IMG/VR virus record: IMGVR_UViG_3300022927_000149
Location: 1 to 20,929 of that record
DNA length: 20,929 bases
Source of the DNA: a virus
Direction: 5' to 3' (one strand)
Made by a program: the position numbers and the translations under genes. Below, in pieces: positions 3 through 18,587 of this stretch (position 1 is the first letter of the stretch; each line of letters opens with the position of its first letter). Under the pieces are notes generated by a model. It was not told the DNA's origin and ran no database searches. It worked only from the letters and a program-made list of their open reading frames with translations.

Positions 3-197
3 GGGACACCAAGTATTAAGAAAGAATTTGAACAAGTACATGGACTTTTACAGATGATGCATGGACAACCGTTTTTTTGTTTGACTGACAACCCCAAGTT
101 GGAGAAGTTCGTACAGTCTATTGGTTATCAATATGTACAAACCCTCCCGTGTGATGACGGGGTAGATAGACCTATGTGGAGATATACAAATGGGTAA
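3..197 (+). CDS. C-terminal fragment of a phage protein, possibly GNAT-like
   Basis: An open frame enters from the left edge and stops at TAA 195-197, giving the last 64 residues of a protein. It overlaps the start of the next gene (ATG 190) by 8 bases, which supports it being real coding sequence. The tail has a pattern of helix, short strand, then a turn with Gly-Tyr (LEKFVQSIGYQYVQ) and a final strand ending WRYTNG. This resembles the last part of GNAT acyltransferase-like proteins found just before internal virion protein genes in podoviruses (T7 gp13 occupies this place). The acetyl-CoA site is outside the window, so the family call is tentative; the coding call is firm. Confidence 0.6.
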   Translation, partial: GTPSIKKEFEQVHGLLQMMHGQPFFCLTDNPKLEKFVQSIGYQYVQTLPCDDGVDRPMWRYTNG

Positions 198-948
198 TGT
201 CGTAGGCGGTATCACTAACGCCTTATTTGGAAAAGGTGGTGCAGGTACTGCCGCTGAAGCCGTTGCTCGTGCGCGAGAGTTAGGTAAAGAAGCTGTATTC
301 AATCCGTTTACAGTTACTACTAGCGCAGGTACTGGTCAATACTTAGGTGACGGACAGTATCAGACTACGTTATCTGCACCGTACTCACAGATTCTTAGCT
401 CTGCCCTTGGCGGTGCAGGAAGTATGTTTGAGCAAGCGGCGGCGTTTGATCCATCGGCAAGAGCGCAACAGGTGTTTGGTGAACAAGCGGCTTTGTTACA
501 ACCACAGTTTGAACAGCAGGCTACAGCATTACAGTCACGGTTGTTTGGTGGTGGACGTTTAGGTCTACGACTTGCAGGAGAATCTCAAGGACTTGGCGCA
601 GGCTCTGGTATGGTTAATCCTGATGCGCTAGGACTTGGACAAGCACAACAACAAACTCTTGCACAGCTAGCGGCTCAGTCTCGTCAGCAAGCATTTGGTG
701 AACAAGCACAACTACAGCAAATGGCGGGTGGTATGTTGCAAGCAGGTATGGGTATTTCTGGCTTAGAACAATCATTACTTGCTCAAGGTTTGGATGCAGA
801 GACTGCTCGTGCGGCGGCGGCATATGCTTCAGGTACTATGCAACTTGATCCATATAAGACGCAAGCGCAGATTGAACAAGAACAACGTGGTCAGAATGCA
901 GGCTTCTTTGGTTCTGTCTTGGGTGGTTACCTTGGGGGAAAGGGGTAA
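190..948 (+). CDS. internal virion / DNA-transfer protein, 252 aa, unshifted product
   Basis: The protein is rich in Ala, Gly and Gln. It begins with a glycine-rich hydrophobic segment (MGNVVGGITNALFGKGGAG) and has a central Gln/Ala-rich helical region (about residues 75-215) with repeated FGEQA motifs at residues 96-100 and 176-180. This composition and its place among other large virion proteins match the small ejected internal proteins of podoviruses (T7 gp14 or P22-type DNA-transfer proteins), which help form the channel carrying phage DNA across the host envelope. The start at ATG 190 overlaps the previous stop. It ends at TAA 946-948 directly after a -1 slippery heptamer, and the -1 frame stays open for another 55 codons, so a longer form is expected (separate entry). 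Function is inferred from position and composition; no enzyme motif is visible. Confidence 0.75.
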   Translation: MGNVVGGITNALFGKGGAGTAAEAVARARELGKEAVFNPFTVTTSAGTGQYLGDGQYQTTLSAPYSQILSSALGGAGSMFEQAAAFDPSARAQQVFGEQAALLQPQFEQQATALQSRLFGGGRLGLRLAGESQGLGAGSGMVNPDALGLGQAQQQTLAQLAAQSRQQAFGEQAQLQQMAGGMLQAGMGISGLEQSLLAQGLDAETARAAAAYASGTMQLDPYKTQAQIEQEQRGQNAGFFGSVLGGYLGGKG

Positions 949-1109
949 GCGGTAGTCCTCCTCCAACATCGTTTGGCCCTACTCAATCAGGCTTTGGCCC
1001 GCTAGCAGGAACATACGGATCAGGATTTGGAACTGCCGCAACAGGTTACATGAACTCACCTTCATTGTTTACAACCACATCGCCTAATCAGTTTAGATTT
1101 TATCAGTAG
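936..1109 (+). other. predicted -1 ribosomal frameshift site and C-terminal extension (306 aa fusion)
   Basis: Bases 936-942 read G GGA AAG in the frame of the upstream gene, an X XXY YYZ heptamer; GGGAAAG is the heptamer used in the lambda gpG/gpGT tail-chaperone frameshift. The zero frame stops only one codon later (TAA 946-948). After slipping back one base, reading continues GGG GTA AGC and runs open for 55 codons to TAG 1107-1109, 8 bases before the next gene. The extension is Gly/Ser/Phe/Thr-rich (FGPTQSGFGPL, GTYGSGFGTAATGY) and ends NQFRFYQ. The total would be 251 + 55 = 306 residues. A 5-base stem (AGCGG 948-952 with CCGCT 999-1003) could start 5 bases after the heptamer, but it is short with a long loop. 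A one-base insertion or assembly error is the alternative. Confidence 0.65.
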
Positions 1110-1117: not shown

Positions 1118-2350
1118 ATGGCACAACGTGATCAAGTATTAGGAATGTTCGGAGCTTCTCCTGAGCAAATCATGGCAAGGCGTAGACGCGAACAAGCACA
1201 AGAAGTCTTACGAACTCAAGATCCTTTTCAACGCGCAGGTGGCGCAATTGGAATGGGATTAGCTCGTATGTTTGGAGGAGAGCCTGAAGAGGTTACTCGT
1301 CAACGTCGATTACAACAAGCACTGCAAGGTGTTGACATGACTAACCCTGAGCAGATGACTCAAGCGGCAAGTATGCTTAACCAAGCAGGGTTCTCTAATG
1401 AAGCTATGCAATTGCTGTCTCGTGCTGATCAGTTCAGAACATCTGAGCAACAACGTGCAACTTCAGAAGCTCAAGCGGCTTATGCTACTCAACAAACAGA
1501 AGCTTCTAAGGCTGATGTTAAACGAGGATTGTTTGAGCGTGTTGACGAAACTATTTCTCAAGCTGTTACAATTGATGGTAAGACATTCTATGTTCCTGTT
1601 AAAGCTAAAGTCAAATACAACAAAGAAACAGGTGACCGAGAAGTCTTAACATCTCCTTCTGAGTTAGAGCAAATGGGACAGCAAGCAGCTCAGAAGATGA
1701 ATCGTGAAGAGCTTGCCGCACAGTCTGAAGCTACATTACGAGAAACACAATTAACCACAGCTAAGAAACAACAAACTCTTGCAGAAGCTCAATTGACAGC
1801 AACTCAAAAGAAAGCAGGAGAAACCACTGGTCTTGTTCGTGTACCAATACAACGTGATGAGTTTGATCCATTGACTCAACGGACAAAGAAAGTCACAGGG
1901 TTTGAGTACAAAGCGACAACAGGTACAATGAAAACTGATGAAAACGGTAAAGAAATCTTTGTTCCTAACATGCAATTACCGCCTGACGCAGAAGTAGTTG
2001 ATGATAAGGGATTACCTCAAGGTGCTATCGAAATTGATAGAAGCAAAGACCTAACTATTGAAAGTCGTGGACAAGAGTTTGTTAAAGTTGGTGCAGGAAA
2101 AGATGAAAAGTTCTATCAGTTAGTTAGGATAGGAGATTTAGAATACTACATGCCTACTCCTGTAGATCCCGGCACTATTTACCAATCACAGCAAGAAGGA
2201 CAAAAACCTAGCACATCGGTAGAAGCTCGTCCTACTGCCCCCGGAAATACAAAAGCTAAAGCTGACTGGGACAGACAATACGGCAGGACACATTATTCTG
2301 ATGGTACGTTAAAACCAAATCAAGAAGGTTTTGAAGACGCGGCAGGTTAA
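1118..2350 (+). CDS. internal virion protein, 410 aa, helical
   Basis: The start ATG follows AGGA at 1108-1111. The protein is Gln/Ala/Glu-rich with long predicted helices at about residues 85-135 and 180-235 (AAQKMNREELAAQ, TLAEAQLTATQKKAGE), separated by a beta-rich stretch (about 145-175, ISQAVTIDGKTFYVPVKAKV). A second beta-rich region follows (about 240-350), then a hydrophilic, Pro-containing tail. There is no signal peptide and no clear enzyme motif. The gene lies between the small DNA-transfer protein and the giant internal protein, the place of T7 gp15, so a structural role inside the capsid or in the ejection conduit is the best inference. Gene identity is not recognised from sequence alone. 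Confidence 0.72.
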   Translation: MAQRDQVLGMFGASPEQIMARRRREQAQEVLRTQDPFQRAGGAIGMGLARMFGGEPEEVTRQRRLQQALQGVDMTNPEQMTQAASMLNQAGFSNEAMQLLSRADQFRTSEQQRATSEAQAAYATQQTEASKADVKRGLFERVDETISQAVTIDGKTFYVPVKAKVKYNKETGDREVLTSPSELEQMGQQAAQKMNREELAAQSEATLRETQLTTAKKQQTLAEAQLTATQKKAGETTGLVRVPIQRDEFDPLTQRTKKVTGFEYKATTGTMKTDENGKEIFVPNMQLPPDAEVVDDKGLPQGAIEIDRSKDLTIESRGQEFVKVGAGKDEKFYQLVRIGDLEYYMPTPVDPGTIYQSQQEGQKPSTSVEARPTAPGNTKAKADWDRQYGRTHYSDGTLKPNQEGFEDAAG

Positions 2351-2361: not shown

Positions 2362-4329
2362 ATGGCTATTGTAGTCAATCATCCGGTTCTTGGAAGAGTA
2401 TCATTTCCTGACAACTACACTCCGCAACAGATTGATGCCGAGCTACTTCAGCTTGGAGCATCTTTATTACCAGAGAAATCTTCTGGTGATGTATTCTTTA
2501 ACCAACTAGGCGAAGGTTTTGAGGCGACCATTGAAGGGCTTGGTCAGCTTACTGGATTAGGCGGTGAGCCAACACAAGAAGACTACATTGATGAGTTTCA
2601 AAACCGTGTTGAATTAGAACAGAATCCTGTTGCGGGTTATGGTGGTTATGTTGTTGGTGCTATCCTTGATCCTATTACAATCCCTGCCGCATTCTTAAAG
2701 CCTATTGCTATTGGTGGTAAACTTGCTACTGGCGCGGCTAGAGGTGCTACAGCAGGTGTGCTCTACGGCGGTACTGCTCCAGTCTATGAAGAGTTTGGAG
2801 ACAGTCGTTTACTCAACACAACTGTTGGTGGTGTATTTGGTGGTGCATTAGGTGGTGCATTGTCAAGAATTACAGCGGCTGATATTACTAAGCCTATTGC
2901 TCCTGAGAAAATGGATGACGCTGTTGACAGTGTACTAGAAGATGTAGCTGAGTCTGTGACTCCTCAAGTAAGAGTAGCTGAAACTGCAGAGCCACAGCCA
3001 CTGAGTGTAGGTCCAGAGCTTGCCCTTACAAAACTTGAAGAAGAGTTAACTCCGCTTGCACAGCCTGCTCTTAAGTCTGGTGATCGTAAAACAACAGAAT
3101 CATTAGTTGCTCAACTTGAAAATAAAATTAACAACATGGAGCGCACTAAGCCAAAGCGTGGGTCTAAGGTTGCTAAAAATTTAGAAGAAGCAAAACAAGA
3201 AGTCAAAGGTCTGAAAGAACGGTTAGCTCAGAATACTGATGAAGCACAGGCCGCTAGACTTGATCTTGAAAACTTACGCAAAGGTGAAATAGATAAATTA
3301 TCTCCTGCAAGTAGAGCAAGAGTTGATGAGCTATCAACCATTCAAGTTAAACCTAAGACTCCAATACAGCAAGCGGTACGTACTCAAGCAGATGTTGCTC
3401 AAGAAGCGGCAGAACAGCCAATCTTCTTTGTACGCCCTGCAGTCACAAGACCAGTAGCTTCTACTCCTGTTACAAAAACACTTGAACAAATATCAGAAGA
3501 CACTAAGCAGGTCATTCAACGCGCTGTTACAGGTGAGCCTGAGCCTGTTCCTACCATGCCTCAGCGTCAGTTTACAATGGATGACATTATGCAACGCAGA
3601 GTTGTAGGCTCTGGTGCGGCTCGTGTGTCTCCATTACAGACAGCAGATGAGTTAAATCTTAAGTGGGCTGAAAAAGCGAGACTACAATCTGGTGCGCTTG
3701 GGCCTCGTATGGTGACTCGTAAGTATCTTCCTCCAGATCAACCTCCGGGTTCTCCTATGACTACAAAAGTAGAAGAAGGAGCGTTCCCTGAGTTTGAGTT
3801 TCCTGCAGGACCAGTGCGTAACTATGCGGCTCAGTTGTACCAATCACTTAACAAGCTCCGTTATGGTGCTAATGTGGCAAGAGGACGTGGTGATACTCGT
3901 GGCTCTGGTACAAGACAAGCTCGTATTAATGCGGCAGGACGTTGGATTGAAAGTCTTGAGGAAGAAGGTAAGTACGTAGAAGATTTTATTCTTTCGGCTG
4001 AGCGTGGAGATATCGGACCTACTCAAATTATGGGATCAGCTAGAGTTCAACAAGATGTTCAAGAAATTGTTGCAAGACAATCTCAAGAATATGAAGATTT
4101 AATAGAGGAGTTTGGCTCAATTGATGCAATACCAAAAGCAATCTACGATGAGCACGTTGCTCGCTCAGTCCCTGCGCTAATGATCAACGCTAAACTTAGT
4201 GGTGCATTAACAGAAGGTTCAGATATGTTGAATGCTTCTAAATGGGTGAAGCAAGCTCTTGGGTTAGATTCTAAAGGTAAGCGTACTAAAGCTCGTATGA
4301 CAGAATTATTCGGAACAAGGTGTATTTAA
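2362..4329 (+). CDS. large internal virion protein, N-terminal reading frame, 655 aa
   Basis: The start ATG follows AGGA (2351-2354). The first 35 residues (AIVVNHPVLGRVSFPDNYTP...) form a short beta-then-helix module often seen at the N-terminus of large podovirus internal proteins. Next comes a Gly/Ala-rich, potentially membrane-active stretch (about residues 95-170: GYVVGAILDPITIPAAF, GGVFGGALGGALS), then a charged coiled-coil region (about 220-310) and a Pro/Gln-rich linker. No lysozyme or transglycosylase catalytic motif is evident. The frame ends at TAA 4327-4329, where the next frame begins with a one-base overlap (TAATG). The following 733-residue frame looks like a continuation, and together they give about 1,390 residues, similar to T7 gp16 (about 1,318). 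This is either a coupled two-gene arrangement or a gene split by a one-base indel. Confidence 0.75.
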   Translation: MAIVVNHPVLGRVSFPDNYTPQQIDAELLQLGASLLPEKSSGDVFFNQLGEGFEATIEGLGQLTGLGGEPTQEDYIDEFQNRVELEQNPVAGYGGYVVGAILDPITIPAAFLKPIAIGGKLATGAARGATAGVLYGGTAPVYEEFGDSRLLNTTVGGVFGGALGGALSRITAADITKPIAPEKMDDAVDSVLEDVAESVTPQVRVAETAEPQPLSVGPELALTKLEEELTPLAQPALKSGDRKTTESLVAQLENKINNMERTKPKRGSKVAKNLEEAKQEVKGLKERLAQNTDEAQAARLDLENLRKGEIDKLSPASRARVDELSTIQVKPKTPIQQAVRTQADVAQEAAEQPIFFVRPAVTRPVASTPVTKTLEQISEDTKQVIQRAVTGEPEPVPTMPQRQFTMDDIMQRRVVGSGAARVSPLQTADELNLKWAEKARLQSGALGPRMVTRKYLPPDQPPGSPMTTKVEEGAFPEFEFPAGPVRNYAAQLYQSLNKLRYGANVARGRGDTRGSGTRQARINAAGRWIESLEEEGKYVEDFILSAERGDIGPTQIMGSARVQQDVQEIVARQSQEYEDLIEEFGSIDAIPKAIYDEHVARSVPALMINAKLSGALTEGSDMLNASKWVKQALGLDSKGKRTKARMTELFGTRCI

Positions 4330-6530
4330 TGGAAACTTGCCGTAGCGTATTCGCTGATTTCATGAAAGGCAAAAAGATGGCTGACTCTATGGGGCCGCGA
4401 GTAGGAGAGAAGTATCTTGATGCAGTCGCAAGAGGTGAGTTAGCAGGAAAGAAAACTGCAAGTGATATTGTTATGGATTCTGTTGCAGAGACTGCTGTGT
4501 CAGGCCTGTTATCTAACCCTGCCTCATGGTTAATTCAGATTGTCTCCGGTGTTACTCAGTCTGTACTGATGCCTTTAGTTAGATTATCGCAAGGGTTAGT
4601 GCAAGGGGGTCCATTTACTAAAGTAGGTAAGGAATCGCTTACAGACGCAGGAGCCATGCTGTTTGGTGCGATCCAAGGATACAAAGAGTTTGTACCATTT
4701 CTAGTTAAGGGGTGGAAAAATGGCTTACCAATTGACATTGACTTTACTAAAGGTCTTAGTGAAAAAGAACTACGTGCTTTGTTGCGAAACGCAGGTTTAA
4801 CAGAAGACTCTAGTCCTCGTGAGTTGAATGCTTTCTTAAAAGACAGATACGATTATATTAACCAAGGTATCCCTAGTCGTTTTGGTGGAGACTTTATTCG
4901 GTTACCTACCCGTATTATTGTTGCCCTTGATGAGGGTATGAAAGCTGTATTCCGTAGACAAAAGTACAACGCTCTTGCATTCCGTAAAGCAATGGAGATT
5001 ACTGACAACGGTACTAAGGGTGATCCTCTAGCTGAATGGAACAAGCTCATTGGAGTTAATCTTGCTAAGGCTGATGAGTCTGAGAAAGCATGGAAGTTTA
5101 TCAAAGGTAAAGATGATGCAGATATGGGTGAGTTGTCTGCTCTGTATCGCGCACAAGATTACGCCAAGCTTAACGCATTCCAACAAGAGTTATTTGGTGC
5201 GGCACGGCAGATGCAAAAGTATCGTGCTGAACATAAGATCCTTGTATTCGCTATCCCGTTCCTGAAGTCTCCATACAACATTCTCAAAGAAGGTGTAACT
5301 TTTGTACCCGGCTTAGGTTACATGGCAGGGAAGTTCTATAAGAAAGCAACTAGCGTAACAAATCTAGGTAGACTAGATGATGCTCAACGCTCTCGTTTCC
5401 TTGAGTTAAGTGACAAGCTTAACATGAACAAAGCCGAGGCTTCTGAGTTAAAGAAACTGCGTAACATCATTGGCCCTACCCGTTATGAGAAGATGGATAC
5501 CAGTGAGATTATGGGACGACAGCTTCTAGGGTTTGGCGCGGCTGTTACAGCATACTCAATGTTTGATGAAGGGTTAATTACAGGTAAGATGCCTGAAAAT
5601 CCTGCTGAGCGTGAGGCATGGAGAGCTAATGGAATCCCTGAGTTCTCAATACGTGTTGGAGATCAGTGGATATCTTATCGTAAGATCGAGCCTCTCTCTA
5701 CTGTGTTTGGTTTGATGAGTGACCAGTATCGTTTGTGGGATGAGTACTTTGAGAACGCACAAGATCCTAACATTGATGAGTGGGAAAAGTATATCAGTGC
5801 TACACATGGATCATTAGTTCAGAATATTATGGGTAAGTCTTTCATGGAGGGACTGTCTAACATTGTCAACCTTGCAACAGCAGGGGCAACGGGTAACTCA
5901 GGACAAGAACTACAAAACATTGCGGCTAACCTTGGTCGAGTTGTTGTACCTTACGGTGCGTTCCTTAACTCAGTTGCTATCTCAATGGACACAGAGAATG
6001 CACCAAGTGGTAAGGCATGGGATAGACAAGCAACATCAGTCATTGAAAAACTACAACAGCGAATTCCCGGATTTCGAGAGTCGCTTCCGTTAATGTATGG
6101 CATCTATGGTGAGGCACGTAAGCTAGATATTATTGATGTATGGGATGGTATTAAGACTGTTGATGACGTGGACAAGACAGCCTTACAAGAAGAACTAGCT
6201 ACCCTTGGCGTTGCTTATGCTCCGATTGACAGAACAATTAAAACAGATATGAAGCTTAACAATAATGAACTAGGTCAGCTACGTGAGATCTCAGCGCAGA
6301 TGGTGACACCTATGCTTGAAGATATGATTAGCGCACCGGGTTGGAGGACTCTACCTAACTCGCTAAAGGATAGAGTATTCAAAGACACCATGAGAGCAGG
6401 ACGCTCTGCCGCAATGAAAGTATTCATCGGTAAGAACATTGGTGTTAAAGAATTTGAGAAGCGGTATATGTTTGCATTACTGAAGAACAAAGGATTGCAA
6501 GACTTAATGACTGAACCCGGAGTTTTGTAG
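4329..6530 (+). CDS. large internal virion protein, C-terminal reading frame, 733 aa
   Basis: I place the start at ATG 4329 (TAATG overlap with the previous stop) with AAGG at 4317-4320, 8 bases upstream; a GTG at 4320 is in frame but lacks its own ribosome binding site. The protein opens directly with helical sequence (METCRSVFADFMKGKKMADS), more like mid-protein than a natural N-terminus. It has hydrophobic segments at about residues 50-80 (GLLSNPASWLIQIVSG) and 300-330 (KILVFAIPFLKSPYNILKEG) and is otherwise helical and charged. It probably belongs to the ejected internal core that forms the periplasmic and inner-membrane DNA conduit. It is the last plus-strand gene; its stop TAG (6528-6530) lies inside the palindromic element at 6524-6538. 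No catalytic motif is recognised. Confidence 0.75.
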   Translation: METCRSVFADFMKGKKMADSMGPRVGEKYLDAVARGELAGKKTASDIVMDSVAETAVSGLLSNPASWLIQIVSGVTQSVLMPLVRLSQGLVQGGPFTKVGKESLTDAGAMLFGAIQGYKEFVPFLVKGWKNGLPIDIDFTKGLSEKELRALLRNAGLTEDSSPRELNAFLKDRYDYINQGIPSRFGGDFIRLPTRIIVALDEGMKAVFRRQKYNALAFRKAMEITDNGTKGDPLAEWNKLIGVNLAKADESEKAWKFIKGKDDADMGELSALYRAQDYAKLNAFQQELFGAARQMQKYRAEHKILVFAIPFLKSPYNILKEGVTFVPGLGYMAGKFYKKATSVTNLGRLDDAQRSRFLELSDKLNMNKAEASELKKLRNIIGPTRYEKMDTSEIMGRQLLGFGAAVTAYSMFDEGLITGKMPENPAEREAWRANGIPEFSIRVGDQWISYRKIEPLSTVFGLMSDQYRLWDEYFENAQDPNIDEWEKYISATHGSLVQNIMGKSFMEGLSNIVNLATAGATGNSGQELQNIAANLGRVVVPYGAFLNSVAISMDTENAPSGKAWDRQATSVIEKLQQRIPGFRESLPLMYGIYGEARKLDIIDVWDGIKTVDDVDKTALQEELATLGVAYAPIDRTIKTDMKLNNNELGQLREISAQMVTPMLEDMISAPGWRTLPNSLKDRVFKDTMRAGRSAAMKVFIGKNIGVKEFEKRYMFALLKNKGLQDLMTEPGVL

Positions 6531-6538
6531 TGTACAAA
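6524..6538. repeat. palindrome TTTGTA-GTG-TACAAA at the convergent junction
   Basis: This copy of the window's TTTGTA/TACAAA dyad has a 3-base instead of 2-base centre. It overlaps the stop codon of the last plus-strand gene and merges with the U-tract of the minus-strand terminator. Unlike most copies it does not precede a minus-strand gene. Confidence 0.6.
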
Positions 6539-6558
6539 AAAAGCCCTCCGAAGAGGGC
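6536..6558 (-). terminator. rho-independent terminator ending the minus-strand block
   Basis: On the minus strand GCCCTC, a TTCG tetraloop and GAGGGC form a perfect 6-bp stem, followed by seven T residues (complement of A 6536-6542). It begins 19 bases after the stop of the last minus-strand gene. On the plus strand the hairpin is not followed by T residues, so it should work mainly leftward. An alternative stem (CCCTCC 6545-6550 with GGAGGG 6567-6572) competes with it. Confidence 0.9.
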
Positions 6559-6576
6559 AATCCACTGGAGGGTGGT

Positions 6577-6768
6577 TCAGTCGTCAGCAAGTCCGTAAAC
6601 ATTACCAACCATAATCTTTAAAAATGGTATGTTGAATATATACCCATCAAAGAAATAAATTGTAGTGTCCTCTTCTGATTCTCCACGTTGTCGTCCATAT
6701 ACAGGCTGTGCTTCTACAGACTCAACAGATAATCCAAAGACGTGCCACCAACTAAATTGTACTACCAT
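6577..6768 (-). CDS. hypothetical protein, 63 aa, downstream of nrdB
   Basis: I use ATG 6768, which lies just before the nrdB stop (TAG 6762-6764) in another frame; AAGGAG inside the nrdB end provides a ribosome binding site about 10 bases upstream. A TTG six bases earlier is also possible. The protein has an aromatic start (VVQFSWWHVFGL), an acidic middle (GESEEDTT) and a hydrophobic end (FFDGYIFNIPFLKIMVGNVYG). No family is recognised. It is the last gene before the terminator and shares the transcript with the reductase genes, so a small accessory role is possible but unproven. Confidence 0.6.
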   Translation of the reverse strand: MVVQFSWWHVFGLSVESVEAQPVYGRQRGESEEDTTIYFFDGYIFNIPFLKIMVGNVYGLADD

Positions 6769-7715
6769 CCCCAATCATCTCCTTTTAGTCCATGTGCATT
6801 GTAATCAGTCACTCGCTTTTCAAAGAAGTTACTCATAGAGCTACCTCCAAGAATCTCCTCCATCCACGGTAGAGGGTTCTCCTTAACCTTCCAGTTTGTC
6901 TTGAGACCAAGTTGCAATAGTCGTCTGTCTGCGAGATAACGAATGTACTGCTTGACATCTGCCGCCGTGAGACCTTCCAAGTCACCCATCTCATACGCAA
7001 GATCAATAACCTTGTCTTCAAGTTTGACTGCAGTACGGAACATCTCGTAAATACTTTTCTTGAAATCGTCATTAACGATGCGTGGATGTTCATTACAATA
7101 CTCCCTGAATAACTTAGCCATCCCCTCTGCGTGTTGTGACTCATCCCGTACTGACCACTCAACAACAGTACACATACCCGGCATCTTACCGTAGCGTTGG
7201 TAGTTCAGTAGCATCGCAAATGCTGAGAACAAACTCATACCTTCATTCAATACTGATCGTGCAATTGCAAGTGCTGTACCATGTACACTATTTACGTCAA
7301 TATCGGACATGAACTCCAGTTTTGCAGACATTTGCTGATACTCTAAGAACGATGTGAACTCCTCTTCAGGTAGTCCGAGAGTGTCATTGAGTAAGGCGTA
7401 TGCTCGTTGATGGATGAACTCACGAGAAGCAAAGGCTGTGAGCATGGCTCTAATCTCATTGTTCTTGAACTTGGGAATATAATACTCAAGATAGTTTGTT
7501 CCAACCGCCACGTCTGTCTGCGTAAATAACCGCAAGATCTGGGTGATATGGTTCTTCTCGCTCTCCGATAATGCGCCTGACTTCCAGTGTGATACATCTG
7601 TTTGTAACTCTAGCTCATCTTCAATCCAATGGATACGCTCATGCTCCGTGGCATACGTAACAGCCCAAGGGTAGTTGAATGGTTTATAACTTTTGCTCTG
7701 TTCCTGCAAGCTCAT
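6762..7715 (-). CDS. nrdB: class I ribonucleotide reductase, small (beta, radical) subunit
   Basis: The 317-residue protein contains the expected diiron and radical set: Asp68, Glu99-x-x-His102, Tyr106 four residues after the histidine (the radical tyrosine equivalent of E. coli Tyr122), Glu158 and Glu192-x-x-His195. The family generates a stable radical and passes it to the alpha subunit for reduction of ribonucleoside diphosphates to deoxynucleotides, in the cytoplasm. The length is typical or slightly short. The start ATG 7713-7715 overlaps the end of a 56-residue small gene, with GGAG about 10 bases upstream. The nrdA gene lies just upstream on the same strand, so the two subunits are co-transcribed. 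Confidence 0.95.
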   Translation of the reverse strand: MSLQEQSKSYKPFNYPWAVTYATEHERIHWIEDELELQTDVSHWKSGALSESEKNHITQILRLFTQTDVAVGTNYLEYYIPKFKNNEIRAMLTAFASREFIHQRAYALLNDTLGLPEEEFTSFLEYQQMSAKLEFMSDIDVNSVHGTALAIARSVLNEGMSLFSAFAMLLNYQRYGKMPGMCTVVEWSVRDESQHAEGMAKLFREYCNEHPRIVNDDFKKSIYEMFRTAVKLEDKVIDLAYEMGDLEGLTAADVKQYIRYLADRRLLQLGLKTNWKVKENPLPWMEEILGGSSMSNFFEKRVTDYNAHGLKGDDWGW

Positions 7716-7854
7716 ATATTTGTCTCTCCAGTGTGTCCAGTCTGTTGGACAGTTCTATGATTGTGTCGTATGCGTCATTTAATAATTGTTTATTGAAAGG
7801 GTCTACGTCTTTGACCAGTTCAATTCTTTCCAGTATCTTAGTTACCCCTGACAT
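7684..7854 (-). CDS. small coiled-coil protein between nrdA and nrdB, 56 aa
   Basis: Read directly from the minus strand: ATG 7852-7854 overlaps the nrdA stop (TAA 7842-7844) by 13 bases, and the frame ends at TAA 7684-7686, overlapping the nrdB start by 32 bases. The product begins MSGVTKILERIELVKDVDPF and ends LERQIYELAGTEQKL. It is charged with heptad-like leucine/isoleucine spacing, so a short coiled coil is likely. It fills the whole gap between the two reductase genes, which is strong contextual support. No family is recognised; it could modulate subunit assembly, but that is speculation. Confidence 0.72.
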   Translation of the reverse strand: MSGVTKILERIELVKDVDPFNKQLLNDAYDTIIELSNRLDTLERQIYELAGTEQKL

Positions 7855-9596
7855 GATACACATACCTCATCTTCAAAGTCCTTCAGGGCATTACGATCTA
7901 CTTTAGTCCCAACCTTCTCCGCTGTAACACCTGCAGTCGTGCGTAAATAATATAGTCCTTTAAGCCCTTCCTTCCACGCCTTGAGGTGTACTTGATTGAC
8001 AATAGCCTTGTCAGTACCCGATGGGAAGAACACGTTAACACTCTGCCCCTGACATATAAACTCTTGTCTTTTGGCTGAGTGTTCGACAACCCACCCCTGA
8101 TCGAGTTCAAATGCTGTCTTAAATGTAGCCTTCTCGTCGTCGGATAGGAACTCCAAGTGCTGTACAGAGCCTTCATTCTCAAGAATACTTTGCCATACCT
8201 TCTTAGTGTTCTTTCCTTTCTCATCTAGTAGGTCCTCCAAGTATGGATTACGAACCGTGTGAGATCCTGCTCTCGTCCGATGAACAAAGCAATTAGATAT
8301 GCGAGGCTCAATAGAGGCAGAGCAACCGCATAGGATGCTACTGTTAGCGTTAGGAGCGACAGCCAGAAGATGCATGTTACGCACACCTGTACCCCTACCA
8401 TCAGGGCATTCACCACGCTCCATAGCCAACTGGTACGTACTGTATTGAGCCTGTTGTTTGATCTCTTGAAACATCTGATAGTTTTCACTAGCGGCCTGCC
8501 AAGATTCCCAAGCTATCCCTTTGCCTTGGAGGTAGCCGTGGAAGCCCATTGCTCCGAGGCCAACTGAGCGTTCTCTGTAAGCTGAGTAAACAGCTTTTGA
8601 TAATTGTTCTGGTGCGTTGTCAACAAAGAATTGAAGCACGTTGTCCAAGAATCGGATAAGGTCTCCAACCATGCCGCTTGATTTCCAGTCGTCGTATCTT
8701 TCGAGGTTGACTGATGAGAGGCAACAGACTGCTGTGCGCTCTTCATTTGTTGCGAGATGGATTTCATTGCAGAGGTTACTACCCATAATTGTGAGTCCAA
8801 GCCGTCTCTGAGCTTCTGGTAAACTTCGTCTGGCTGTGTCGATAAAGTTAAGGTAAGGACTGCCAGTTCTGAAGCGAGCTTCAAGTATTCGTTGCCAAAG
8901 TTTGCGAGCCTTGACTGTATCTCTGACAATTCCTGTACTTGGGTCTGTAAGGTTCCATTCTGTATCATTGATTACCGCCTCCATAAAAGCGTCAGTGATG
9001 TTCACTGCATTAAAAAGATTAAAACATTTGCGATTGATGTCACCACCAGTCGCTACCTTGAAGGAGATAAACTCCTCAATATCAGGATGGCTTACGTCTA
9101 GGTACGCCGCGTAGCTTCCCTTCCGTGTCTTCCCCTGTTTGTACGCTGTCATCTGAGCGTCCACTACTTTCATGAATGGGATCGGTCCCGGAGCTTTGTC
9201 GCTCACTCCTCTCACGTCTGACCAATGCCCACCCACACCTCCGCCCTTTACGGAAAGCCATGCTACTTCACCATTATGTTCAATAAGAGAATCAAGATTG
9301 TCCCCCACGTAAGTAAGGAAACAGCTAATAGGCAACCCACTAACCTTTCCATTCGGTTCTGGGGCATTACTAAGGACAGGAGACGCAAACATGAACCAAC
9401 CCTTTGAGGCATAGTCATAAATACGTTGTGCCAAATCCAGATCCCCGTAGCAGTAGGCCACTGCCGCACGTGCGAAAGCCTGCTGAGGAGACTCTTCATG
9501 TTCAAGCATATAGTAGTCACGCATGAGCGTACTTGCTTGATCACTAAGGCGATTGTCTCTTTCATAATCAATCGTTATCCCAAGGTGTTGAGTCAT
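7842..9596 (-). CDS. nrdA: class I ribonucleotide reductase, large (alpha, catalytic) subunit
   Basis: I choose ATG 9594-9596 (MTQHLGITIDYERD, 584 aa) over an upstream in-frame start because GGAG lies 10 bases before it. Catalytic residues are present: Cys92 (SGLPISCFL), the Asn-Leu-Cys276-x-Glu278 active-site motif, Cys292 near VCCLSSVNL, the PNANSS phosphate-binding loop, the Tyr-Tyr radical-transfer pair (GLKGLYYLR), and a C-terminal Cys579-x-x-Cys582 relay. No ATP-cone is visible at the N-terminus, so overall dATP inhibition by that domain is probably missing, common in phage enzymes. It works with the adjacent nrdB product to make dNTPs for phage DNA synthesis. No thioredoxin or glutaredoxin gene is in the window, so a host reductant or one encoded elsewhere would be needed. 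Confidence 0.96.
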   Translation of the reverse strand: MTQHLGITIDYERDNRLSDQASTLMRDYYMLEHEESPQQAFARAAVAYCYGDLDLAQRIYDYASKGWFMFASPVLSNAPEPNGKVSGLPISCFLTYVGDNLDSLIEHNGEVAWLSVKGGGVGGHWSDVRGVSDKAPGPIPFMKVVDAQMTAYKQGKTRKGSYAAYLDVSHPDIEEFISFKVATGGDINRKCFNLFNAVNITDAFMEAVINDTEWNLTDPSTGIVRDTVKARKLWQRILEARFRTGSPYLNFIDTARRSLPEAQRRLGLTIMGSNLCNEIHLATNEERTAVCCLSSVNLERYDDWKSSGMVGDLIRFLDNVLQFFVDNAPEQLSKAVYSAYRERSVGLGAMGFHGYLQGKGIAWESWQAASENYQMFQEIKQQAQYSTYQLAMERGECPDGRGTGVRNMHLLAVAPNANSSILCGCSASIEPRISNCFVHRTRAGSHTVRNPYLEDLLDEKGKNTKKVWQSILENEGSVQHLEFLSDDEKATFKTAFELDQGWVVEHSAKRQEFICQGQSVNVFFPSGTDKAIVNQVHLKAWKEGLKGLYYLRTTAGVTAEKVGTKVDRNALKDFEDEVCVSCQG

Positions 9597-9744
9597 CGAA
9601 ATCATTCTCCAGTGTATCTTGTTTTTCTTCAATGCGATCAGCGAACCGATCTACCAAGTCTTCTGAGGTAATCTCTAACGTCTCCATCAGAGTTACCTCA
9701 TCCAACTGCTTGAGCTTATCCTTAATTTCTTCAAGCGTAAACAT
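9568..9744 (-). CDS. small acidic protein upstream of nrdA, 58 aa
   Basis: ATG 9742-9744 opens a frame ending at TGA 9568-9570, overlapping the nrdA start by 29 bases. The product starts MFTLEEIKDKLKQLDEVTLM and ends in the acidic tail FDDSTPWDND. It is strongly helical and acidic. No good ribosome binding site precedes this ATG, whereas an internal ATG (9685-9687, residue 20) has GAGG 8 bases upstream. The promoter at 9747-9775 would start transcription at or just past the first ATG, so a 39-residue form may also be made. No family recognised. Confidence 0.65.
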   Translation of the reverse strand: MFTLEEIKDKLKQLDEVTLMETLEITSEDLVDRFADRIEEKQDTLENDFDDSTPWDND

Positions 9745-9746
9745 CT

Positions 9747-9775
9747 ATTTTACCATACTTCAATCAGTTTGTCAA
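9747..9775 (-). promoter_or_regulatory. sigma70-type promoter for the reductase genes
   Basis: TTGACA (9770-9775) and TAAAAT (9747-9752) are separated by exactly 17 bases on the minus strand. The -35 is perfect and the -10 matches 5 of 6. The site overlaps the end of the DUF3310 gene. Transcription should start near 9740, just inside the 58-residue gene, and read nrdA and nrdB. Confidence 0.65.
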
Positions 9776-9980
9776 GATAATGTTTGCACTTTTGCAAATC
9801 TAATACACCACCTTTGTCTTGAAAACGAGCAATGTATTTGATCACATTACCAATTAAGAATCCCTTGAATTGATCCTCAGTCATCCATGACTGCATTGCG
9901 TCCCAAGGCTGTATATCTTTGTCGGTGTAGTGTGTACCTCCAAGTTGATACTCACGCGCCATATCATGTAAGTCAGGCAT
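9750..9980 (-). CDS. DUF3310 (SaV-like) protein, 76 aa
   Basis: The sequence has the family signature: Gly-Gly-Thr-His-Tyr (GGTHY, residues 14-18), Gln-Pro-Trp-Asp, a Gly-Asn-Val-Ile-Lys-Tyr-Ile-Ala-Arg core (44-52) and a C-terminal DLxKxxxYLxxLI helix. DUF3310 proteins are common in phages, sometimes annotated as nucleotide kinases, but a biochemical role is not established. The start ATG 9978-9980 overlaps the end of the metallophosphoesterase gene, and GGGAG inside that gene is the ribosome binding site. It sits next to nucleotide metabolism genes, a typical setting. Confidence 0.88.
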   Translation of the reverse strand: MPDLHDMAREYQLGGTHYTDKDIQPWDAMQSWMTEDQFKGFLIGNVIKYIARFQDKGGVLDLQKCKHYLDKLIEVW

Positions 9981-10734
9981 ATCGCTCCCTTAAATAATTA
10001 ATAGACACTGGCATCTCATCGAACGTCCCTTCAATCACTTCGTGCAACATCCAAATACCAGACCATGATCCGTTAGTCTGTGGATTCAAGTAGTCCTCAT
10101 CATGTTGATAGTAGATACCTGCAAACAATCCCGTAATGCGCTTACCATCAGCGCGTCTAGCGTAAGAGATACTACGATCCTGTACGTGGCCCATGACACA
10201 AGACATGTGTTGCTTGTTGATCAGTGCGTTAGAAGAACTTACTGGTCTTCCCATAACACCACTAACAAAATAATGGCTGTAACAGACACCATCAATAACC
10301 ACAGGCTGTAAGAAATCATAGACCTCCCATCCCATCTCTGTTAAGTACAGATCATCAAACGACATGAGACCTTCTAGCTTAGGATCTGCATTGATAGCAC
10401 GAGCAATACGATACTCATGGTTACCCAATGTAAATACTAAACGAGGGTTCCACTGCTTGTCCTTGTTGCGCTTGAGTCTCTCCTGTTCCTTACGAATAGG
10501 ATCAAGGAACTCTTGCATTGCCTCAACACCTGAGTTGATGTCATTGATGTAGCGTCTACCTTCAAAAGACTTCTTACCTACATCATAGGTAGAGAGACTA
10601 GGTAGATCAAAGTGATCACCAATATGCACAATTACATCAGGCTTCTTCTCAACGGCATATTCTCCTGCCCAACGCAGATGATCTGTCGGGTGTCCCGGCT
10701 TCACTTGCGTGTCAGGTATGACCATGTGTTTCAT
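9973..10734 (-). CDS. metallophosphoesterase (calcineurin-like), 253 aa
   Basis: Metal-binding motifs appear in order: Asp8 (PDTQ), Gly39-Asp40-His (HIGDHFD), Gly104-Asn105-His106-Glu107 (TLGNHEYR), His154 (YSHY) and Gly182-His183-Val-Gln185. The family uses two metal ions to hydrolyse phosphoester bonds in nucleic acids, nucleotides or proteins. Two usual histidines are changed: the first motif is D-x-Q rather than D-x-H, and the last is GHVQ rather than GHxH. Both are seen in phage versions but mean activity cannot be assumed. ATG 10732-10734 overlaps the TGA of the endonuclease gene (ATGA). Its place among replication nucleases suggests a DNA end- or nucleotide-processing role. Confidence 0.85.
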   Translation of the reverse strand: MKHMVIPDTQVKPGHPTDHLRWAGEYAVEKKPDVIVHIGDHFDLPSLSTYDVGKKSFEGRRYINDINSGVEAMQEFLDPIRKEQERLKRNKDKQWNPRLVFTLGNHEYRIARAINADPKLEGLMSFDDLYLTEMGWEVYDFLQPVVIDGVCYSHYFVSGVMGRPVSSSNALINKQHMSCVMGHVQDRSISYARRADGKRITGLFAGIYYQHDEDYLNPQTNGSWSGIWMLHEVIEGTFDEMPVSINYLRERYA

Positions 10735-11090
10735 TTCTGATTCCTCAGTAATTCAAAGAAGTACTCTGCGTCAACGACTGCGAGTGGTCTTCTTCTGTTT
10801 TCTTTAACGATGACAAGCGGCTGTGCATCGCCTCGATTGTTGCACTGGTCAACATAACGATAGACTCCAACTCTCGCAAGCGACTTGCATTCGACATCGA
10901 ACGGGAAAGACTTGCTAGCCAAAGGGCTGAGTTGAAGATCACTGCCGCTAACACCCATACTTGTGCTTCTGACATCATTCTCCTCCAAATGTGGATACGT
11001 CTCCAGTACTCGATCACGGGTCCACTGCTGTAGCTTACGTCCTTTAGATTTAGCTGACTGCGTTTTCACTTGGCGGACTCCATATCTCAT
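10731..11090 (-). CDS. PD-(D/E)XK endonuclease of phage replication modules, 119 aa
   Basis: I use ATG 11088-11090 (MRYGVRQVK). An ATG at 11121-11123 is in frame but would put the palindrome TTTGTACCTACAAA inside the gene, and the conserved region starts later (KSKGRKLQQWTRDRVLE). Catalytic residues fit a PD-(D/E)XK nuclease: Asp51 (SGSDLQLSP), Glu67 and Lys69 (FDVECKS). The SMGVSGSDLQLSP...FPFDVECK pattern is a well-known phage endonuclease family found beside DNA polymerase and exonuclease; it may cleave branched or host DNA, like T7 endonuclease I in role. The gene overlaps the exonuclease end by 41 bases and the metallophosphoesterase start by 4. Confidence 0.85.
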   Translation of the reverse strand: MRYGVRQVKTQSAKSKGRKLQQWTRDRVLETYPHLEENDVRSTSMGVSGSDLQLSPLASKSFPFDVECKSLARVGVYRYVDQCNNRGDAQPLVIVKENRRRPLAVVDAEYFFELLRNQK

Positions 11091-11733
11091 CTGGATTTCT
11101 TTGTAGGTACAAAAGGATTCCATTCTCTATTGCACGTTCTTCACTGCCTAACTCTTCAACACAAACATCAAACATCTCTTGCGCTGTCTTATCCTCTAAC
11201 AACTTACGTGCTTTGACTGGGCCAATACCCCTGACACCAATGATGTTATCAATCCGGTCACCAACAAGGAACTGCATATAAAAGTTAAGCAGTCCCTCAT
11301 CGGCTGTAACGTAGTACTTCTCCTTCTTTACAAAGTTGTAGTGCCATCCCTGCACTTGATCGAAATCCTTGTCAAGAGACACGATGATGCTTTCATCTCC
11401 ATATGTTGTTGCGTCAATTGCAATAGCATCATCAGCCTCAATCCCTTCATACACTTTACCATTCCATGATAGTTCAAGATACTCACGCAACAGTCCATGA
11501 TGCGTAGGTTTCTCACCCTTACGGTTACCTTTGTAAGGTGCTGTGATGGCGTAGTCATGTCGATAGTTGGATGAGCCAGTTAGATAAGTCTTCCACTCCC
11601 CAACATCAAGATCAAACATAACTAAATCTTCAAGGAACGAGGCCATCGTCCTGATAGCCACATCCTGAGACTCCTCTTGTGTTGCAAATCCTATGCGGTA
11701 ACAGAGGATATCACCATCAATCAGTGCGATCAA
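11050..11733 (-). CDS. 5'-3' exonuclease / flap nuclease, 227 aa
   Basis: The protein has the acidic residues of the PIN/FEN nuclease fold: Asp6 and Asp8 (LIDGDIL), Glu96-Glu99-Asp101-Asp102 (YEGIEADD), Asp121 and Asp123 (SLDKDFDQ), and Asp159/Asp162 (GDRIDNI), followed by a helix-hairpin-helix GVRGIGPVKA (166-175) that binds DNA. The family removes 5' ends or flaps; in T7-like phages the gp6 counterpart degrades host DNA and removes RNA primers. The start codon is TTG (11731-11733), overlapping the TGA of the ssDNA-binding gene by three bases, with GAGG upstream. Length is close to stand-alone phage enzymes. Confidence 0.9.
   Translation of the reverse strand: MIALIDGDILCYRIGFATQEESQDVAIRTMASFLEDLVMFDLDVGEWKTYLTGSSNYRHDYAITAPYKGNRKGEKPTHHGLLREYLELSWNGKVYEGIEADDAIAIDATTYGDESIIVSLDKDFDQVQGWHYNFVKKEKYYVTADEGLLNFYMQFLVGDRIDNIIGVRGIGPVKARKLLEDKTAQEMFDVCVEELGSEERAIENGILLYLQRNPDEIWSPPSENAVS
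11100..11113 (-). repeat. palindrome TTTGTA-CC-TACAAA before the endonuclease gene
   Basis: A perfect dyad with the same 6-base arms as the other copies lies inside the exonuclease gene, 10 bases upstream of the endonuclease ATG. It encodes Leu-Tyr-Leu-Gln of the exonuclease, so coding constraint could also explain part of it. Confidence 0.6.
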
Positions 11734-12140
11734 AGTACTTCTACATCCTCGTACTTATCATCAGACTCAACGTATTCGCTAAGGTCTGTGACGATCAGCT
11801 TCTTGACACCAAGAGAGACACCTTTGTTACCTGTCGGTCCTTTCCATGCATATGGTTGAACCATCACAGTACCACGGGAGCCATTACCTACTTTGATATT
11901 GCGAGGTAAAGCTTCACCACTTGTATCGTAAGGTGTGATCTCATACTTAGACTTGCATGTCACAAAGAAACCACGCTCATCATCCTTGGTGCGCACATCA
12001 ACACCCAGACTCTCAAGCTTCTCAACTTGCTTAGGGTTGAGGTTTACCAAGTCAACTTGATACTTTTGAGATGTTGGATTCACCTCATACAGACTAGGCC
12101 AGTACAACTCAATGTCCTGAATCTTAAATAAATCACTCAT
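11730..12140 (-). CDS. single-stranded DNA-binding protein, 136 aa
   Basis: A beta-rich protein of about OB-fold size (KIQDIELYWPSLYEV, KYQVDLVNL, GFFVTCKSKYEI, SRGTVMVQPYAW, KGVSLGVKKLIVTDL) ends in an acidic tail (ESDDKYEDVEVL), the arrangement of phage ssDNA-binding proteins such as T7 gp2.5, whose acidic tail contacts the polymerase and helicase. It lies directly between DNA polymerase and exonuclease, where that protein is expected. GGAG is about 9 bases before ATG 12138-12140, and a strong sigma70-type promoter lies upstream. Family assignment rests on fold pattern, tail and context. Confidence 0.82.
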   Translation of the reverse strand: MSDLFKIQDIELYWPSLYEVNPTSQKYQVDLVNLNPKQVEKLESLGVDVRTKDDERGFFVTCKSKYEITPYDTSGEALPRNIKVGNGSRGTVMVQPYAWKGPTGNKGVSLGVKKLIVTDLSEYVESDDKYEDVEVL

Positions 12141-12171
12141 ACTTTTCTCCGTAGGAAGTAATTGAACATAT

Positions 12172-12201
12172 ATTATAACACAACTACTCAGTGTGTGTCA
12201 A
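12172..12201 (-). promoter_or_regulatory. strong sigma70-type promoter before the ssDNA-binding gene
   Basis: Perfect TTGACA (12196-12201) and perfect TATAAT (12172-12177) are spaced by 18 bases on the minus strand. The -35 lies in the last codons of the polymerase gene and the -10 in the 47-base gap. The predicted start near 12165 would give a leader of about 25 bases with GGAG before the ssDNA-binding gene. Confidence 0.82.
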
Positions 12202-13819
12202 ACCAATTGTTACCTATTTTACTTTCAGCATCAACGCGACACCGAAACCCCAAGACTTTTCCTGCGTGTGTCGCAGAAGTAGTCATCCACATTGCAACAT
12301 CTTGAGCATCTCTCTCCGATGTTTCAATTTGAATTTCATCATGTACAAATGCAACTTGTCGCACAGGTAAGCGAAATCGCTTGAATTGTTTGTGTGCTTC
12401 AATACACCACTGCTTTGCAATGATAGCCCCGCAACCTTGAAGGAGGCTGTTGAGCGCGGCATGCTCAGATCTAACAATGATTCTTCTACCATCCAACCCG
12501 GGTACGTACCCTTTGCTCGCCACTTTCTTAACTTTTTCCATAAGTCTTGATAACGCAGGGGTGTTAGCATAAAAGCGCGACAAGACCTCTTGCCCCTCAC
12601 GCGCACCTCCCCCGACAATACTACCAATCTTTGCGGGTCCCGCGCCGTAAAGGGTTGCATAGATGAGAGTCTTAGCCTGCGGTCTCGTAATGCCTGCGGC
12701 ATCAGCGTTCTTCTGATGGATATCTCCATTCAATAACTCCTCTGTCCATTCATCATCTTGCATGTAATGAGCTAGGCATCGTAGTTCTATGCCACTCAGG
12801 TCAGTACCAACGAGAACATTACCTTCCTCTACAATCCACAAGGCTCGACACTCCGCACCATACTCACTGTTGACACTAGGGATTTGCCCCATGTTTGGTT
12901 TCTGGTGTGTCATGCGTCCAGTCACAGCACCATTAGTGATCACCCTACCGTGTACCCTACCGTCATCCTTAACGCTATCAATCCATGAATCAAGCAGACC
13001 AACACGCTTCTGTATCATCAGATACTCAGCAATCAGTTGTGCTTCAGGTAGATCAATCCCCTTAAGTGTACCCTCATCAACTATGATACTGCCTTTCTCA
13101 GTCTTCTTAGTAAACTTAACGCCACGCTCCTGAAGACGCTGTGCGATTTGTTGTCTTGACCCCACATTGAATACGGTAACCCCGTCTTTGAGACGCTTGC
13201 CGGTCTTCTCTGACCAACGCTCTTCCACAATCGGAGGAAATATATTTTGCAAGTGGTCAGTGATAAAAGCCATCCTATCCTTAAGCGTAGCCAACAAAGA
13301 GATAGCTTCTTTCTCATTGAGTTTAAAACCATTGTCTTCCTGCTTCTTCATGATGTGTGCAACTTGATGTTCAAGATCAACAGAGTGACCGTAGTCCTTG
13401 AGTTCTCTTGACAACTTGTCATACAGTTTCACGGTTACGTTGACATCCTGCATACAATAGTCAGCCATCTCATCAGTGTAACCACCATCAAAATCAGTGA
13501 AGTCATCCTTGAAATCACCGAGCCTTTCACCCCATGCACGTAGACTATGACCACCCTCCAGTTGTGGATTCCATAGCCTTGACATGACCAGAGTGTCGTG
13601 GACTTTGGAGAGGGGAATCTTGACTCCCCAAACCCGTGACAACACTGGCCCATCAAACCCTATGATGTTATGTCCTACCACTACATCGGCTTTATCTACT
13701 AATGCTTGTACGTGCTTAGCATCTGTGTAGATAGAGGTGTAGTTGTCATAGTGGCAACCACAACACCATATCGTATCGTGTGCAAGGTTGGTCTCAATGT
13801 CGAGTACCAATACCCTCAT
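12188..13819 (-). CDS. family A DNA polymerase with 3'-5' exonuclease, 543 aa
   Basis: Proofreading motifs are present: Asp7/Glu9 (LDIET), Asn51...Asp56 (NIIGFD) and Tyr121-x3-Asp125 (YCMQDV). Polymerase motifs follow: A at Asp340 (GTDLSGIELR), B from Arg379 and Lys383 to Tyr391-Gly (RPQAKTLIYATLYG), and C at His493-Asp494-Glu495 (FVHDE). Tyr387 is the E. coli Pol I 762 equivalent, as in T7; Phe or Tyr there is linked to virulent phages and Leu to temperate ones. At 543 residues it is about 160 shorter than T7 gp5, so a thioredoxin-binding loop is probably absent. It replicates the phage genome with the primase-helicase, whose gene ends at its start codon (13819). Confidence 0.95.
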   Translation of the reverse strand: MRVLVLDIETNLAHDTIWCCGCHYDNYTSIYTDAKHVQALVDKADVVVGHNIIGFDGPVLSRVWGVKIPLSKVHDTLVMSRLWNPQLEGGHSLRAWGERLGDFKDDFTDFDGGYTDEMADYCMQDVNVTVKLYDKLSRELKDYGHSVDLEHQVAHIMKKQEDNGFKLNEKEAISLLATLKDRMAFITDHLQNIFPPIVEERWSEKTGKRLKDGVTVFNVGSRQQIAQRLQERGVKFTKKTEKGSIIVDEGTLKGIDLPEAQLIAEYLMIQKRVGLLDSWIDSVKDDGRVHGRVITNGAVTGRMTHQKPNMGQIPSVNSEYGAECRALWIVEEGNVLVGTDLSGIELRCLAHYMQDDEWTEELLNGDIHQKNADAAGITRPQAKTLIYATLYGAGPAKIGSIVGGGAREGQEVLSRFYANTPALSRLMEKVKKVASKGYVPGLDGRRIIVRSEHAALNSLLQGCGAIIAKQWCIEAHKQFKRFRLPVRQVAFVHDEIQIETSERDAQDVAMWMTTSATHAGKVLGFRCRVDAESKIGNNWFDTH

Positions 13820-15432: not shown

Positions 15433-15634
15433 TCTCGTTCTCCTTGTAGTACTTACTCAACACCATCAGTGCATAAGACTCTTTAGGATCGCAACAGTAA
15501 TCCGCAAGAGAAGTTAGTACACGATGAAGACCATAACGATAAATCATTTCACAACAGTCTGTCAACATAATGTGATTGTTGTGTTCTTCCATCGCAAGAG
15601 AGAACTCTTCAATTGGAATTTCTAAATCACCCAT
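15398..15634 (-). CDS. hypothetical acidic protein before the primase, 78 aa
   Basis: I choose ATG 15632-15634 (MGDLEIPIEEF) since GGAG lies 10 bases upstream; an earlier in-frame ATG at 15661 would start inside the palindrome. The protein is acidic and helical with Cys-Cys in two places (TDCCEMIYRYG, ADYCCDPKES). No family recognised. It overlaps the primase-helicase by 35 bases and is the first gene after the promoter at 15716-15744, so it probably belongs to the replication operon. Confidence 0.7.
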   Translation of the reverse strand: MGDLEIPIEEFSLAMEEHNNHIMLTDCCEMIYRYGLHRVLTSLADYCCDPKESYALMVLSKYYKENESGFCKDAPTMQ

Positions 15635-15648
15635 ACTCTGTAGTCTCC

Positions 15649-15662
15649 TTTGTAGATACAAA
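15649..15662 (-). repeat. palindrome TTTGTA-TC-TACAAA before the primase operon
   Basis: A perfect 6-base-arm dyad lies 15 bases upstream of ATG 15634. Its last bases (CAAAGGAG) run directly into the ribosome binding site. It lies in the leader of the transcript from the promoter at 15716-15744, roughly 50 bases past the predicted start, so it could act on RNA or as a DNA operator. Confidence 0.75.
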
Positions 15663-15715
15663 GACTCTAAAGATAATAATAATAAAGTAATCTCTTAGAT
15701 AACTCTAGAGAGAAT

Positions 15716-15744
15716 AGTGTATCATGAATAATCTTCAGTGTCAA
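15716..15744 (-). promoter_or_regulatory. sigma70-type promoter for the primase-polymerase operon
   Basis: Perfect TTGACA (15739-15744) and TACACT (15716-15721, 4 of 6) are exactly 17 bases apart on the minus strand, at the end of the zinc-ribbon gene. Transcription should start near 15709, where TCTCT...AGAGA (15707-15711 with 15691-15695) could form a 5' hairpin in the approximately 75-base leader. Confidence 0.65.
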
Positions 15745-15907
15745 CAATGTCATCAATACTCATGAGGTCATGTCGCTCAACTGCTTTGACTTGATCGCGT
15801 ATCGGATTGTAACAATCATTGCAAAGATCGAGGAACTCCTCAGTTTCTGACGACTTTCTTGTCGCCTCAAAGTCTGTCAACAGACAGTTACATGCAACAC
15901 ATCTCAT
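15722..15907 (-). CDS. zinc-ribbon protein, 61 aa
   Basis: Two Cys-x-x-Cys pairs (Cys3/Cys6 in RCVACN and Cys29/Cys32 in LCNDCY) should bind one zinc ion. Between them is LLTDFEATRKSSETEEFLDL, a pattern common to small conserved phage proteins of unknown function. The C-terminus is acidic (SIDDIVDTEDYS). ATG 15905-15907 overlaps the stop of a 28-residue membrane microprotein by ATGA. A role binding host transcription machinery or nucleic acid is possible but not shown. Confidence 0.8.
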   Translation of the reverse strand: MRCVACNCLLTDFEATRKSSETEEFLDLCNDCYNPIRDQVKAVERHDLMSIDDIVDTEDYS

Positions 15908-15990
15908 TCATCATCTCCTTTCTTTAGAAAAGATGTAATTAATAATGCCACATAAATCAACAAGATAGCTGATGTAATTAAAGTATCCAT
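15904..15990 (-). CDS. single-pass membrane microprotein, 28 aa
   Basis: Read directly: ATG 15988-15990 to TGA 15904-15906. The product is one hydrophobic helix (MDTLITSAILLIYVALLITS) followed by FLKKGDDE, which predicts a transmembrane segment with a charged tail. It overlaps the next gene by ATGA, and AAAGGAG near its end serves that next gene. Its own ribosome binding site is weak (GGGG about 10 bases upstream). Function unknown; early phage membrane microproteins can act on the host envelope or on superinfection. Confidence 0.6.
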   Translation of the reverse strand: MDTLITSAILLIYVALLITSFLKKGDDE

Positions 15991-15997
15991 TAAATAT

Positions 15998-16329: not shown

Positions 16330-16332
16330 TCT

Positions 16333-17662: not shown

Positions 17663-17663
17663 A

Positions 17664-18538: not shown

Positions 18539-18550
18539 ACTACTCTCCAG

Positions 18551-18564
18551 TTTGTATGTACAAA
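18551..18564 (-). repeat. palindrome TTTGTA-CA-TACAAA before the 79 aa gene
   Basis: One of four identical 14-mers in the window, all with CA at the centre on the minus strand. It lies 13 bases upstream of ATG 18538, directly before GGAG, and follows a run of T residues. Confidence 0.85.
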
Positions 18565-18587
18565 AAAATCATGGCGTTTCTCAACGA

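Follow-up and report, generated by a model that had tools for sequence, protein, structure and literature searches.

At the 3' end of one virion protein gene of an uncultured virus, a slippery heptamer stands one codon before the stop, and the reading frame one base back stays open up to 8 nt before the next gene. Does this arrangement encode a second, longer protein by programmed -1 ribosomal frameshifting, or has it another origin? The window, i.e. the whole stretch of DNA analysed here, is an IMG/VR record of 20,929 bases; its relevant features are as follows.

3..197, plus strand: last part of a gene cut off by the window start, acetyltransferase-like by position (an N-acetyltransferase gene lies at the same position in phiGT1, RHph_N2 and pCB2047-C)
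190..948, plus strand: zero-frame gene for the virion protein at the IVPB/gp14 position, 252 aa; about 70 relatives, synteny with HTVC019P, CRP-125 and phiGT1
876..1109, plus strand: open -1 frame, stop TAG at 1107-1109; no ATG, GTG or TTG in this frame before about 1050
936..942, plus strand: slippery heptamer G GGA AAG in the zero frame, shared together with the -1 arrangement by L026/L027, L028 and L041
942..1106, plus strand: predicted -1-frame C-terminal extension, 55 aa
946..948, plus strand: TAA stop of the zero frame, separated from the heptamer by 3 nt
1118..2350, plus strand: gp15-position protein, 410 aa, from the ORF and synteny
2362..4329, plus strand: first part of the large internal-virion-protein gene, 655 aa; frame change at 4320-4331 conserved in L017 and L019
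4329..6530, plus strand: gene for a 733-aa protein resembling internal virion protein D (phrog_6651, E 4e-27), overlapping the preceding gene in TAATG

The slippery site of the window gene

The last codons of the gene at 190-948 are CTT GGG GGA AAG GGG TAA, with a single codon (GGG) between heptamer and stop. Read from position 942, the -1 frame encodes 55 residues (GVSGSPPPTSFGPTQSGFGPLAGTYGSGFGTAATGYMNSPSLFTTTSPNQFRFYQ), and the ATG of the next gene follows at 1118, 8 nt beyond the -1-frame stop. The original prediction had placed GGGAAAG in the zero frame with the stop one codon on, the end of the -1 frame at 1109 and a gap of 8 bases behind it, all of which was confirmed. A -1 frame open over this length arises by itself with P ~0.07 (base shuffle), and heptamers of the form X XXY YYZ occur elsewhere in the family genes at ~0.001 per codon, corresponding to ~0.006 expected within 12 nt of the stop. 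The comparative evidence for the frameshift in the window, presented below, is far stronger than either of these chance figures.

On sequence grounds, the 3' end of this IVPB/gp14-position gene is very probably (about 0.88) a -1 programmed ribosomal frameshift cassette making a minority extended form. Most ribosomes would read ...GGA AAG GGG TAA and release the 252-aa protein. A minority would slip back by one base on G_GGA_AAG, the Gly-tRNA re-pairing from GGA to GGG and the Lys-tRNA from AAG to AAA, and would complete a form of 306 aa (251 + 55); the homologue L003, which encodes its tail in frame, has 307 aa. The long form would carry a conserved tail, rich in Gly, Ser and Pro and with FRFYQ as its last residues, and is expected to be the minority product by analogy with known sites of the same kind. 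Both forms would be expected in the virion, and the slip site would set the number of tailed copies. From the sequence we infer ribosome shifting, its efficiency, presence in the virion and a function in ejection or in interaction with the host. The heptamers G_GGA_AAG and C_CCA_AAG, the latter present in a relative, are rated highly shift-prone in E. coli (review, PMC5009743).

Conservation of the arrangement among relatives

A search based on the tail recovered L026/L027 and L028 from other metagenomes, i.e. three contigs with two distinct sequences, since L026 and L027 are near-identical sequences from two metagenomes. The core is 70% identical to that of the window in L026/L027 and 75% in L028, while the tail is 95% and 78% identical, respectively. 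Each of them retains GGGGGAAAGG, the -1 tail and the zero-frame stop, which is TAA in L026/L027 but TGA in L028. Conservation of heptamer and -1 frame in related phages, named in the original prediction as support for frameshifting, is found in diverged sequences.

In a wider scan of the family, about 70 loci were sorted by the distance from the zero-frame stop to the next gene (here L028 is listed as L060, L026 as L065, L003 as L062 and L036 as L063; L074 is nearly identical to L073). Every member with a gap of more than 100 nt has an out-of-frame ORF filling it. A zero-frame slippery heptamer lies 0-9 nt before the stop in 11 of 11 distinct loci with a -1 gap-filling ORF, namely GGGAAAG in the window, L060, L065 and L068, GGGGGGA in L067, L069, L080, L082, L085 and L098, and CCCAAAG in L073 (and L074). 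Among gapless members, any heptamer near the stop was found in 2 of 30 (Fisher P = 2e-8, a nominal value, as the loci are related and the cassettes recombine). Such nominal P values overstate significance, the family loci being non-independent samples. A stronger argument than the association P is the replacement of one heptamer by another: tail type C follows GGGGGGA in L067 but CCCAAAG in L073, and tail type D follows GGGAAAG in L068 but GGGGGGA in L085. The slippery function thus appears to be retained while the heptamer sequence changes. Across this group of uncultured marine-type phages, the predicted gain in the -1 loci is about 40-55 residues.

A further scan, intended as a held-out test, used the tail-B alignment; it recovered the four known loci and no additional frameshift locus, and its remaining matches are in-frame uses in other proteins. 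The family core was not found in bacterial and archaeal genomes, and tblastn with the core against isolate phages gave no match. A DNA-pattern match in L031 (1551-1572), with GGGAAAG one codon before TGA, a GTG overlapping the stop (GTGA) and a long -1 frame, belongs to an unrelated-looking protein and was set aside as a probably coincidental match.

The -1 frame was also compared codon by codon. Its dN/dS is ~0.13 between the window and L028 and 0.08-0.18 among more diverged tail-B pairs, and in the same comparisons the differences gather at the third codon positions of this frame; selection is weaker for the L068/L085 tail frame (dN/dS ~0.5). By these substitution patterns, purifying selection acts on the tail frame. 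In 9 of the 11 loci, the window included, there is no ATG, GTG or TTG able to give a near full-length tail. The exceptions with a possible separate tail start are L060 (ATGA) and L073 (GTGA, plus an ATG).

These start codons bear on the possibility of a free-standing tail, a small protein made by termination-reinitiation at the overlapping stop and never fused to the core. The ATG of L060 overlaps its TGA stop and the GTG of L073 overlaps the stop as well; moreover, other podovirus contigs have a separate gene of 116-123 aa which ends in the tail-B sequence and lies between equivalent genes. Reinitiation is nevertheless judged very unlikely, given the nine loci devoid of a suitable start and the association of the heptamers with the gap arrangement.

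Still harder to credit is an error of sequencing or assembly, or a natural indel that recently interrupted a normally continuous tail-encoding frame. The window site is rich in homopolymers (GGGGGAAAGGGG), and the nearest intact homologue of the gene, L003/L062 (core 79% identical), has a 58%-identical tail in a single uninterrupted frame and no heptamer. Precisely such a homologue had been named in the original prediction as pointing to an indel; it does exist, but the wider set of relatives reverses the conclusion. The same arrangement recurs in diverged contigs of other metagenomes, with another stop in L028 and other heptamers elsewhere, and the third-position bias of the -1 frame extends across these divergences. 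An error or indel is rejected at the level of the family, whose diverged relatives keep the arrangement with the -1 frame under selection. Because other relatives keep the heptamer and the -1 tail, the in-frame tail of L003/L062 is, as far as the sequences tell, one of several alternative 3' cassettes and not proof of an indel. Transcriptional slippage, by which runs of G (or T) would change the frame in the RNA, has in its favour the G5/G6 and T6 runs at several sites and is highly improbable, since CCCAAAG (L073) and GGGAAAG lack a long run and the common feature is an in-phase X XXY YYZ. Established bacterial transcriptional slippage occurs mainly on long A/T runs.

Ribosomal -1 frameshifting at GGGAAAG in a virion gene, as originally proposed, is accordingly backed by the kept heptamer and -1 frame, the association with the gap, purifying selection and the scarcity of alternative starts. 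Downstream stimulatory structures are common at -1 frameshift sites and are not required. In L067, L068, L069, L080, L082 and L073, the stems predicted downstream of the site outdid those of shuffled sequences, with z between about -1.9 and -2.5. In L098 and L085 the stem was no better than shuffles, and a strong downstream hairpin was not predicted in the window (z +1.8), L060 (+0.3) or L065 (+1.4). A small 6-bp hairpin following GGGGGGA in five loci covaries: at three of its pairs both bases have changed in a comparison of four distinct sequences, a small sample. A stimulatory RNA structure is therefore plausible in part of the family, the window not being among the loci with a predicted stem.

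Exchange of 3' cassettes

Not all family members with an out-of-frame tail use the -1 frame. L063 and L095 end with CTT TTT TCG TAG (site of L063: CTTTTTTCG) and have a 36-residue +1-frame tail reaching the next gene (L063:2740-2865, L095:1420-1545). The two tails are 92% identical with few nonsynonymous changes, a comparison of two loci only. The arrangement may reflect a +1 or a -2 shift, either of which fits.

Closely related members differ in this part of the gene. On either side of their differing 3' cassettes, L064 and L065 are 99% identical, over about 1.0 kb on the upstream side and 1.8 kb on the downstream side; the cassettes consist of an in-frame QLDFGSS tail in L064 and of GGGAAAG with a -1 tail in L065. 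The pairs L083/L092 and L100/L113 likewise differ by the presence or absence of a Peptidase_S74-type tail. On the core tree, a quick tree with many weak branches, at least nine changes between frameshift and in-frame states were counted. Relatives carry other heptamers (G_GGG_GGA, C_CCA_AAG), other tails, in-frame tails, Peptidase_S74, no tail or a +1/-2 site, exchanged as recombining 3' cassettes. We lean towards the view that recombination is concentrated at the 3' end of the gene and that phages swap tails there together with the translation mode that sets tail stoichiometry, be it in-frame, self-processing S74, none, -1 with any of three heptamers or +1/-2. That the tail is swapped with S74 and other tails suggests that it is a part making contact with a surface or envelope.

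The tail-B end, QSRMLAAQEF or a near variant, also ends the separate 116-123 aa gene in L140 (2237-2608) and L157 (2219-2569), two other podovirus contigs in which this small gene is flanked by the genes of an S74 virion protein and of the gp15-position protein. The same end is present in long tape-measure-like proteins of L152 and L153 and terminates another protein in L160. It is possibly a shared virion-protein motif.

Gene identity and comparison with known systems

The frameshift gene follows the acetyltransferase-position gene and precedes the gp15- and gp16-position genes, which is the IVPB/gp14 position. A comparable gene layout is found in HTVC019P, CRP-125, Sulfitobacter phages phiGT1 and pCB2047-C and Rhizobium phage RHph_N2; in phiGT1, pCB2047-C and RHph_N2 the equivalent position is occupied by an S74-type virion protein. 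The relative L033 has an SU10-type adaptor and a nozzle-position gene upstream. The core alone had no match in PHROG, Pfam and PDB, and hmmsearch with the core against HTVC104P, CRP-3, CRP-235, CRP-125, HTVC019P, phiGT1, RHph_N2 and pCB2047-C gave nothing significant. S74-tailed members of the family match phrog_4287 and phrog_6121, partly via the S74 domain, and a profile comparison of the core with the phiGT1-type protein (hhalign) was weak (probability 27%, E 7e-4). The AlphaFold model of the protein has low confidence (pLDDT 59); fold searches were uninformative in the PDB and matched uncharacterised phage proteins among viral structures. The designation as internal virion protein in the original prediction is consistent with synteny and the weak family links, while a direct match of the protein itself is lacking. 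Position and the S74-tailed members suggest that it may be an ejection protein.

The lambda gpG/gpGT frameshift uses the same heptamer, GGGAAAG. As predicted for the window gene, a -1 shift near the 3' end of the lambda gene gives a minority C-terminally extended form (PMC5009743). In contrast to the window gene with its podovirus-like ejection/internal-virion-protein position, gpG and gpGT have the tape measure protein as their target and do not occur in mature virions; the varying tail types of the window family are a further difference. A lambda-type chaperone gene lies beside the tape measure gene of a long-tailed phage, whereas the window gene has tail-nozzle/acetyltransferase genes on one side and internal virion protein genes on the other, in a podovirus-like module. 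Two virion forms per gene, produced by frameshifting, and variable C-terminal decorations are likewise known from the T7/T3 gene 10 capsid, from Ig-like-domain extensions and from TpeX of SPP1 and 936 phages (PMC5009743; PMC6669499). Gene 10 and TpeX products are major capsid or tail tube proteins, in contrast to the IVPB-position protein of the window family, which, within a single family, occurs with three -1 heptamers, with a +1/-2 arrangement and with in-frame tails. The S74 virion protein of phiGT1/pCB2047 and RHph_N2 (phrog_6121; phrog_4287, 'DNA ejection protein') has the same position after the acetyltransferase gene, but is annotated as one uninterrupted gene and shows no direct core sequence match to the window family.

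The type of recoding is known. Within the literature searched, the kind of gene in which it lies and the combination of several recoding modes by a single family appear to be new; no relevant paper describing a frameshift in an ejection or internal virion protein was found there, which does not prove novelty. Virion proteins known to be extended by frameshifting are mainly tail chaperones, capsids and tail tubes. If the frameshift reading is correct, with a site that is conserved and has been rebuilt repeatedly, a fixed minority of tailed copies matters in an ejection-position protein, the several natural heptamers feeding homologous tails offer material for comparison, and annotation pipelines ending at the zero-frame stop would overlook the long form in phages of this family.

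In the remainder of the window, the upstream fragment at 3..197 had no family match. The product of 4329..6530 matches internal virion protein D of cyano-, pelagi- and roseophages, and the large internal virion protein is split over two genes by the TAATG overlap at 4320-4331. A second programmed frame change at this site was considered and rejected in favour of an ordinary gene overlap, which is also present in L017 and L019. A contig from another metagenome (L025) is 99.9% identical to window positions 5661-11750 (6.1 kb), an overlap that lies outside the frameshift site. Positions 6762-20497 encode ribonucleotide reductase subunits, DNA polymerase, primase/helicase and exonuclease on the strand opposite to the structural genes, as in HTVC104P, and the DNA polymerase is 48% identical to that of HTVC104P.
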